From: Candidatus Liptonbacteria bacterium
GTDB lineage: Bacteria > Patescibacteriota > Minisyncoccia > UBA6257 > JACOXY01
Reading direction: 5' to 3'
DNA length: 45,285 nt
Assembly (NCBI GenBank): GCA_016182095.1
Contig: JACOXY010000015.1
Span: forward strand, 1-45,285
The first letter of the stretch is position 1, and every line of letters starts with the position of its first letter. Below, piece after piece: positions 22,066 through 24,415 of this stretch. The notes under the pieces are model-generated. The model saw only the letters and a program-made list of their open reading frames with translations. It was not told the origin of the DNA and did no database searches. A program made the translations under genes and the position numbers.

Positions 22066-22391
22066 TGGCAAAGAATTCTGGTAGAAAATTTTTTGAGGGC
22101 GCTCTTTTGGGAGCAGCTTTTGGCGCGGCGTCGGGCATAGTCCTGGGAGTTATAAATTCCAAGAAAATCAAAAAGGGCGCGGCTAAATCAAAAAAACACG
22201 CCGCTGAATTTTATAAGCAGGCGGTGCCGCAGTTAAAAAAACTAAAAAGAGTCGGGGAGGGCGAATATGATGAGTTTATGAAAAAGGCCATAGCGAATTA
22301 TGCGAGAGTAAAGAAACTCTCCGGCAGAGAAGCCATGGAGCTAGCCAGGGAAGCGAAAAAATATTGGCAGGAAATTAAAAAGCATATATAA
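22065..22391 (+). CDS. YtxH-like small protein
   Basis: GALLGAAFGAASGIVLGVINSKKIKKG glycine-rich TM then Lys-rich helix. Confidence 0.65.
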   Translation: MAKNSGRKFFEGALLGAAFGAASGIVLGVINSKKIKKGAAKSKKHAAEFYKQAVPQLKKLKRVGEGEYDEFMKKAIANYARVKKLSGREAMELAREAKKYWQEIKKHI

Positions 22392-22412
22392 TTCGTTAAG
22401 GTTTTAGAAAAC

Positions 22413-22505
22413 ATGAACAAGAAGGTTCAGAAAATTTTCACATACGTTATCGTGGGCATGATGCTTGTGAGTTTAGTGGGAACTATGATATCATTTGGAT
22501 TCTGA
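22413..22505 (+). CDS. 30-aa putative membrane peptide not in ORF track
   Basis: MNKKVQKIFTYVIVGMMLVSLVGTMISFGF*: basic N-terminus plus one TM segment. Confidence 0.5.
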   Translation: MNKKVQKIFTYVIVGMMLVSLVGTMISFGF

Positions 22506-22582
22506 ATTAGAGTCTAGCCATTAGGGTCTAGCCATTAGGGTTCAAAACTATTGGCTATTGACCATTAGCTAGTTTACTAGGC

Positions 22583-24031
22583 TTGTTTTACCTACTAACC
22601 TTCCTCGGCCTTTCATTACTTATTTTAGTCCATGAATTGGGACATTTTGGGGCGGCAAAATTTTTTGGCCTAAAGATTGACGAGTTTGGTTTCGGCCTAC
22701 CCCCTAGAGCTTGGGGCAAAAAAATAGGGGAGACAATTTACAGCTTAAACTGGCTGCCATTCGGCGGTTTCGTGAAAATATATGGGGAAGAGGGCGGTGA
22801 AAATCTACTAATGACTAATACTAATACTACAAATGGCTACAAACAAACCAAAGGAAAAATAGTTGAGAAAGAGCTATCATATGAATTAAATGGAATTTTT
22901 TTTGATATTCACCGCGAGATTGGAAGATATGGACGCGAAAAACAATACGCTGATTTATTAGAAAAAAAATTAAAGGAGCGAGGTATTGAGTATAAGCGAG
23001 AACAAAGGATTGGTGATTTTGTTGATATCGTAGATTTTATTGTAGAAAATAAGATTGTTATTGAATTAAAGGCTAAAACATTATTATTAAGAGAAGATTT
23101 TAATCAGGTAAAAAGATATCTAAATGCCACACAGCTTGAGTTGGGGATTTTGGTAAATTTTAGAGACAGTTATATAAAACCCAAAAGGGTTCTTAGTCCT
23201 AATGTTGGTAGCATTTCGTCAGATTTGGATGAATTCGTAGTTTCGGATCGGTCAAGAAGCTTTGTCGCGCAACTTCCGTGGAAACGCTCAATTATTATTC
23301 TTTCCGGTGTTTTAATGAATTTCATTTTGGGATGGTTCCTGATTTCCGCTGTTTTAATGACCGGAACGCCAGAGGGTGTAATCATCACAGGGGCAACAGA
23401 CAATTCGCCTGCTTATTTGAGCGGCGTTAAACCCGGTGATCGCATCCTGGATTTCATAGATTCAGCCACATTTACCGAATTTATTAAGGAAAACGCCGGA
23501 AAGGAAATAAGTTTTAATGTGAGAAGGGGGAGTGAAAAACTCACGATCAAAGCAACCACGCGCGAAAATCCGCCGCAAGGCGAGGGAGCTTTAGGAGTAA
23601 GTCTTATTGACGGCGGTGGTCGGTTAGGATTTGCGACTGCCATCTTGGAAGGGCTTAAAACAACAATTACGCTGATTGGGTTGATTATCGGGTCATTCGT
23701 GTTTCTAATCAAAGGGCTAATATTGGGGAGCGCTGATCTCGCGGGGGTAGTCGGCCCAATCGGAATTTTTAATGTCGCCGGAGAGGCGGGGTCTCTTGGT
23801 TTGGTTTATTTCCTGAACCTTCTGGCGCTAATCTCTATAAATCTCGGCGTCATTAACATTTTGCCATTCCCGGCTCTGGACGGCGGCAGACTTTTGTTTA
23901 TATTGATAGAAAAGGTTAAGGGTTCACCATTGCCGCAAAAGTTTGAGCAACTCACAAACGGCATCGGCTTTGCGCTTTTAATAGCACTAATGGTTGTGAT
24001 AACGCTCCGCGATATCAGCAACTTGGTTTAG
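22583..24031 (+). CDS. RseP/M50 site-2 protease with in-frame GxxExxY (PDDEXK_3-like) insertion
   Basis: HELGHFGAAKFFG, SLNWLPFGGFVKI, PALDGGRLLF; inserted segment ELNGIFFDIHREIGRYGREKQYADLLEKKL...VDFIVENKIVIELKAK...LELGILVNFR. Confidence 0.9.
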   Translation: MFYLLTFLGLSLLILVHELGHFGAAKFFGLKIDEFGFGLPPRAWGKKIGETIYSLNWLPFGGFVKIYGEEGGENLLMTNTNTTNGYKQTKGKIVEKELSYELNGIFFDIHREIGRYGREKQYADLLEKKLKERGIEYKREQRIGDFVDIVDFIVENKIVIELKAKTLLLREDFNQVKRYLNATQLELGILVNFRDSYIKPKRVLSPNVGSISSDLDEFVVSDRSRSFVAQLPWKRSIIILSGVLMNFILGWFLISAVLMTGTPEGVIITGATDNSPAYLSGVKPGDRILDFIDSATFTEFIKENAGKEISFNVRRGSEKLTIKATTRENPPQGEGALGVSLIDGGGRLGFATAILEGLKTTITLIGLIIGSFVFLIKGLILGSADLAGVVGPIGIFNVAGEAGSLGLVYFLNLLALISINLGVINILPFPALDGGRLLFILIEKVKGSPLPQKFEQLTNGIGFALLIALMVVITLRDISNLV

Positions 24032-24050
24032 CTTGTATTCCCGTAGAGAT

Positions 24051-24078
24051 AAAAATCGGCCAGCGAATGGCCGATTTT
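24051..24078. terminator. Bidirectional terminator hairpin
   Basis: AAAATCGGCCA/TGGCCGATTTT between convergent genes. Confidence 0.75.
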
Positions 24079-24415
24079 ACGACTTGTTTTTCCCAGTCAA
24101 ATACCCATATGCGACAAGAGCCAATAATAAGCCAATTGGGATCCAGAAGTAGAAACCGCGTAACCACAACCATACAGTGCCACACACTAATAATAAAAGT
24201 GCGGCCACCAAAACGATAGGGCTAGCGTGAATATTTTTATTGTGCCAGTAAGCCGCCATAGAAGCACTTACTACAATAATCAAAATAGCAAGCAAAAGTG
24301 CCTCAATCCCGCTAGTTACATCTCCCCGCACAATCCATGTTATCGCAGGTGATATAAGTAAAAGGCCCGCGGTGGCCATCAACAGTAAAAAATTTTTAAC
24401 GTGAACTTGCCACAT
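24077..24415 (-). CDS. Hypothetical membrane protein
   Basis: Hydrophobic segments; promoter upstream. Confidence 0.65.
   Translation of the reverse strand: MWQVHVKNFLLLMATAGLLLISPAITWIVRGDVTSGIEALLLAILIIVVSASMAAYWHNKNIHASPIVLVAALLLLVCGTVWLWLRGFYFWIPIGLLLALVAYGYLTGKNKS

Follow-up and report, generated by a model that had tools for sequence, protein, structure and literature searches.

An in-frame GxxExxY nuclease domain inside the site-2 protease RseP of a Patescibacteria genome as a probable mobile, non-splicing element

How a nuclease domain comes to lie within the reading frame of a conserved membrane protease is the question raised by a rseP gene of Candidatus Liptonbacteria. The window, that is, the whole 45,285-nucleotide stretch of DNA analysed, comes from an 893-kb draft genome in 23 contigs. 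On its forward strand, an ORF at 22583–24031 with a TTG start codes for 482 amino acids and runs uninterrupted to its stop. The Pfam Peptidase_M50 family covers residues 7–469 (4.5e-52) but is interrupted by PDDEXK_3 (PF13366) at residues 97–199 (7.2e-20, 71.9 bits against a cut-off of 22), and NCBIfam likewise recognises both the RIP metalloprotease RseP (TIGR00054, 5.6e-64, 216 bits) and GxxExxY (TIGR04256, 4.8e-18, 65.6 bits against a cut-off of 35). The original prediction, made from the sequence without database searches, of a GxxExxY/PDDEXK nuclease domain in frame inside an RseP/M50 protease is thereby borne out. The locus is arranged as follows.

22583–24031, + strand: rseP gene with in-frame insert, 482 amino acids plus stop (ORF call, family matches)
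22583–22793, + strand: N-terminal part of RseP, with TM1 and the membrane-associated beta hairpin NWLPFGGFVKIYGE (family match, model, alignment)
about 22631–22645, + strand: HELGH zinc motif in the TM1 part of RseP
22794–22864, + strand: left end and linker of the candidate element, low-complexity ACTAATGACTAATACTAATACTAC..., with a decayed left inverted repeat (gapped alignment)
22865–23191, + strand: GxxExxY PD-(D/E)XK (Cas4/RecB-like) nuclease domain, residues 95–203 (profiles, alignment, models)
23192–23253, + strand: right end and linker of the candidate element, with a 40-nt stretch ending GTTTCGGATCGGTC (matches to copies L015, L106 and L107)
23254–24028, + strand: C-terminal part of RseP, with TM2, PDZ, TM3–TM4 and the PALDGGR motif (families, model)

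The HExxH and LDG motifs, the PDZ domain and the four-TM architecture of an RseP/M50 site-2 protease are all intact around the insert. The predicted structure of the fused protein (pLDDT 90.7) is confident for both the protease core and the nuclease, which are joined by linkers modelled as disordered at residues about 77–88, where pLDDT is low, and 212–218. By the established topology of RseP the TM1–TM2 loop is cytoplasmic, and a nuclease placed there could reach DNA.

The insert is a genuine GxxExxY family member (PF13366, TIGR04256), with all conserved residues present: E119, D151, E161-x-K163 and Q175-xxx-Y179. Across 51 aligned GxxExxY domains the E, D, ExK and QxxxY positions vary little or not at all, and the D and ExK are retained just as had been read from the sequence. 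Modelled alone, the domain folds confidently (pLDDT 94.7), and its best solved structural neighbours are Cas4 SSO0001, LHK-Exo, Cas4 Pcal_0546 and lambda exonuclease. It resembles these Cas4/RecB-type nucleases in fold and in the order D/ExK/QxxxY but is much shorter (114 residues versus about 200) and is fused into unrelated hosts; the model thus points to a compact Cas4/RecB-type nuclease. For embedded domains, dN/dS is 0.06–0.17 in the five pairs whose dS is finite, including about 0.17 for the RseP inserts of genomes G224 and G225; dS is saturated in two further pairs. At the level of codon comparison, the GxxExxY nuclease is under purifying selection. Such low values indicate that the nuclease is kept as protein, which argues against its removal at the RNA level before translation. 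No anti-phage defence model in PADLOC matches the domain, and a reading as a defence gene was rejected on that ground.

The insert also stands out in composition. Its GC content is 30.3%, compared with 44.4% and 46.3% in the two halves of RseP, in agreement with the AT-richness noted originally, and only 0.1% of 439-nt windows across the 45 kb are as AT-rich. The low-complexity start noted at the same time corresponds to ACTAATGACTAATACTAATACTAC at the left end. Of the borders first proposed, 22797–23235, the left one stands (about 22794–22797), but the right one has to be moved to about 23253 because copies in other genes and families share the 40-nt stretch ending GTTTCGGATCGGTC, at their right ends and, inverted, at their left ends. 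The right end of the window's insert, ATTTCGTCAGATTTGGATGAATTCGTAGTTTCGGATCGGTC, is matched by both ends of the pilin-adjacent copies L106 and L107, the left ones when inverted, as well as by the right end of the RseP copy of G224, and these matches identify it as element sequence. Within the window copy, a gapped match of ~44 nt aligns the left end with the inverted right end (P about 0.05); no exact inverted repeat was found there, the longest exact word being 6 nt. Since its inverted repeat has decayed, the window copy may be old and immobile. Directly upstream of rseP, window positions 22500–22575 hold short repeats (GTCTAGCCATTAGG and variants) of the same low-complexity kind as the left end of the insert.

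Among RseP proteins the insert is rare. Relatives recovered from a database scan are nearly all from Patescibacteria/CPR genomes, and 240 of 244 genomes of the order match an RseP query. The segment is not a fixture of close RseP proteins: the insert-free alleles that the original prediction had proposed looking for in related M50 proteases are present throughout the order (about 240 relatives) and also across the class, and among the matches listed there only the window, G224 and G225 carry the insert. The latter two belong to one genus of a different family and have the same domain in the same TM1–TM2 loop. No further fused RseP was seen in the class sample, and when 85,462 species genomes were scanned, the only full-length fused RseP hits were two records whose contigs equal those of G224 and G225 in length. 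Two other candidates, L121 and L122, were rejected as RseP fusions: in each, the GxxExxY gene stands alone and is followed closely by a rseP that lacks the insert. The window's family has one other genome, G001, which cannot be read at the insert, since its rseP contig (L009, G001:C34) starts at the position of the insert end; a repeat-induced break is possible.

Comparison of trees for the RseP core and the insert provides evidence on the origin of these three copies. In the core tree the window's RseP joins that of G001, from the same family (99/95), and those of G224/G225 fall within theirs. A single clade of the three carriers is rejected for the core (p-AU 0.003, 0/200 bootstraps), and with it the vertical descent of the RseP inserts from one origin. 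For the inserts themselves, a single clade is compatible with the data (p-AU 0.47). Because the core tree splits the carriers, the element has either reached the RseP loop on two or more occasions or passed from one rseP gene to another.

Unrelated proteins also contain the domain in frame, which the original prediction had proposed looking for. A PF13366 search of the order gives matches in 84 of 244 genomes, and about 50 of the roughly 150 GxxExxY matches listed sit in open frames of at least 230 codons, a count biased against out-of-frame copies in that embedded copies were detected through open frames. RecG holds 16 copies between its DEQHRFG and SATPIPRT motifs and one more in its N-terminal region; LepA holds 12 copies just before the DTPGH switch and one elsewhere. 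Further in-frame hosts are transketolase, CopA, GatB, an oxidoreductase, an O-antigen-ligase-like protein, a GT4 glycosyltransferase and D-aminoacyl-tRNA deacylase. The LepA and RecG insertion sites recur in families outside the order.

Several other arrangements accompany these. One 862-aa ORF of unknown family (L089:2234-4819, G035) contains two GxxExxY domains from two different subfamilies, and in L106, L107 and L108 the domain continues in frame, with no intervening stop codon, into pilin-like N-terminal segments. Standalone elements lie upstream of a fusA-like gene in L064 and L075, and between the same pair of neighbouring genes in L001 and L073; the use of the same stop-to-start junctions in different families suggests that there are preferred intergenic targets too. 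The RecG frames of L210 and L212 (G183 and G184, family f17) contain TGA codons, in L210 at the conserved tryptophan of DLLWHFPFRY, and family f17 may read TGA as tryptophan.

Evidence for movement comes from closely related genomes that differ at the same site. RecG carries the insert in G175 and lacks it in G176 and G177; it carries it in G219 and lacks it in G220. LepA carries it in G007 and lacks it in G008–G011, and in G123 with absence in G121, G122 and G124. At these LepA and RecG sites a short host turn has given way to the element; in the LepA pairs inspected this turn measures about 15–18 nt. Identities of insert and host are uncoupled: the LepA inserts of G110 and G209 are 87% identical and their cores 64%, those of G071 and G213 79% and 55%, and over all LepA pairs the correlation of insert and core identity is 0.05. 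A RecG insert and the O-antigen-ligase insert are 78% identical. The domain tree mixes hosts, with nine changes needed for the RecG inserts and six for the LepA inserts. The subfamily of the window insert (100/99) includes four RecG inserts, the pilin-gene fusions, three standalone copies and the other RseP inserts; the window insert is 60% identical to pilin-adjacent and RecG inserts and 56–58% to RseP inserts. Presence or absence at one site in sister genomes and transfer independent of the host gene, two marks of homing-type behaviour, are both observed. As for possible carriers, the domain has no match in 50,697 phage records, on which a phage carrier was rejected, and only four distant matches in plasmids.

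Standalone copies reveal the ends of the unit. They are about 415–590 bp long, with the nuclease ORF between inverted repeats that reach 34 nt (10–34-nt terminal inverted repeats in intergenic copies). In most cases no more than about 10 nt separate the beginning of the repeats from the preceding stop codon, and no more than about 15 nt their end from the start codon that follows. Of 27 standalone copies, 22 have an exact inverted word of 10 nt or longer, as do 15 of 47 embedded copies; a control with mispaired ends gives 5%. The repeats are clear in the other two RseP copies (G225, P below 0.001; G224, P below 0.005). Judged from these alignments, terminal inverted repeats are a property of the family. 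No transposase gene was seen inside the element.

A second kind of structure marks the junctions with the host gene. In nine of 12 LepA copies a perfect hairpin of 7–11 bp is present at both junctions; among the RecG copies, several carry a hairpin at the left junction. A slightly narrower test finds stems of at least 7 bp at 8/12 left and 8/12 right LepA junctions, compared with 0.7% and 2.5% in shuffles. The copies concerned are the following.

LepA copies with junction hairpins: L056, L057, L069, L077, L079, L080, L090, L092, L095
RecG copies with junction hairpins: L050, L078, L083, L084, L087, L097

The outer arm of each hairpin is host coding sequence and the inner arm its inverted copy, so the arms differ by host: GTGAGGATG/CATCCTCAC in G123 and GTTCGCATGA/TCATGCGAAC in G007. 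The outer arm in G123 is identical to the sequence of the insert-free sisters. The hairpins are possibly a trace of insertion, as they would be left if both 3' ends at a double-strand break were extended by fold-back synthesis; selection for an RNA hairpin is an alternative account. Junction hairpins were not seen in the subfamily of the window.

These observations are best explained if the segment is a mobile, non-splicing, nuclease-encoding element that survives in essential genes through in-frame read-through, a reading to which we assign a probability of about 0.8. An element of about 450–460 bp, encoding a GxxExxY Cas4/RecB-like nuclease and bounded by inverted repeats, would have entered the cytoplasmic TM1–TM2 loop of rseP in frame. 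It would be translated within RseP, removed from neither RNA nor protein, and would fold as a separate domain on disordered linkers, presumably leaving the protease core intact and functional. The nuclease may cut insert-free DNA at preferred sites, with repair copying the element in by homing or transposition; only frame-keeping insertions would survive in essential genes. Persistence in such conserved genes would be possible because neither the two ends nor the nuclease interrupts the host frame. The suggestion of a mobile intervening domain in a permissive cytoplasmic loop gains strong support from the insert-free alleles, the unrelated hosts and the host-independent movement.

The nuclease could instead have been domesticated, giving RseP a new regulated function, for example as a membrane-tethered enzyme released or triggered by proteolysis. 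Its cytoplasmic location, the occupation of the same RseP loop in two families and the purifying selection on the G224/G225 insert would all fit. However, the distribution is sporadic, the same domain sits in many functionally unrelated proteins, and the window insert is as near to pilin-adjacent and RecG inserts as to those of RseP, which makes domestication unlikely. The membrane protease–nuclease sensor or effector offered as the other option in the original prediction is disfavoured on similar grounds, because the domain has no preference for RseP and the nearest relatives lie in RecG and beside pilin-like genes. Somewhat less probable still is that the insert does not transpose and travels only as cargo, through ordinary homologous recombination or when whole host genes are transferred horizontally. 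Between families, RseP inserts (55–58%) and cores (54–56%) do show similar identities, as such co-transfer would predict, but the cores follow the families while the inserts are compatible with one clade, LepA inserts are far more alike than LepA cores, and related copies occur in different genes.

A self-splicing intein or intron carrying a nuclease would also be in frame and recur at sites in conserved genes. Pfam and NCBIfam scans detect no Hint/intein family, no Rfam intron match up to E 0.1 is found in 22300–24100, the frame is open across both junctions, and the linkers are variable and disordered and not conserved splice junctions; the intein and group I/II intron readings were therefore rejected, and splicing is very improbable. 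The fragmented state of the draft assembly might invite suspicion of an assembly or binning artefact joining two genes, but this is the least credible explanation of all: two independent genomes, G224 and G225, share the arrangement, which excludes an assembly chimera, no stops interrupt the frame, the split M50 match resumes correctly on both sides, and the same pattern recurs in dozens of other genes.

If the preferred reading of a mobile, read-through element is correct, selfish DNA can live inside indispensable proteins without splicing machinery. That reading would also hint at what a widespread nuclease family does, no function of which was found described, and would give the long-standing puzzle of in-frame repeats in protein-coding genes a defined enzyme and known empty sites with which to test it. 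The copies show, in addition, that bacteria with small genomes tolerate a foreign domain of 110 residues in the core of RecG, LepA and RseP. In the open-access literature no description was found of the GxxExxY family as mobile or embedded in other proteins, and of two papers there that mention the family, one has it as an entry in a gene table; within that literature, such behaviour appears to be undescribed. Nor was a description found there of the combination suggested by these sequences, namely in-frame retention, a nuclease and no splicing.

Among known systems, inteins with homing endonucleases splice and carry enzymes of the LAGLIDADG or HNH type. They share with the insert an in-frame nuclease, recurrent sites near conserved motifs and a sporadic distribution, but the insert has no splicing domain, stays in the protein on flexible linkers and encodes a PD-(D/E)XK nuclease. 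Rickettsia palindromic elements (RPEs), reportedly treated by Ogata in 2002, are the nearest precedent for insertions that are in frame and retained. In two reviews these are mobile repeats of about 150 bp that lie in frame in many unrelated protein genes, are kept in the protein and are not described as enzyme-encoding (PMC10969869, PMC3733652). In-frame, retained insertion in unrelated protein genes is the common trait; against their length of about 100–150 bp, the present family has units of 415–590 bp, a conserved nuclease and Patescibacteria as hosts. Insertion sequences in CPR rRNA genes mostly encode LAGLIDADG enzymes, and over half have group-I-intron-like structure; same-site elements are related across distant hosts, from which homing has been inferred, and that paper does not mention GxxExxY (PMC11270868). 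They occur in the same bacterial group and, like the present elements, place same-site copies in distant hosts, but differ by their location in rRNA. The chances are about even that the present elements constitute a new autonomous class in Patescibacteria, in which a nuclease bounded by inverted repeats inserts in frame, without splicing, at recurrent sites of essential genes such as recG, lepA and rseP, the hairpins at many lepA and some recG junctions suggesting fold-back repair. Set beside these systems, the feature is real and unusual and is best regarded as a variant form among the in-frame mobile elements, and the odds are fair that it merits a class of its own.
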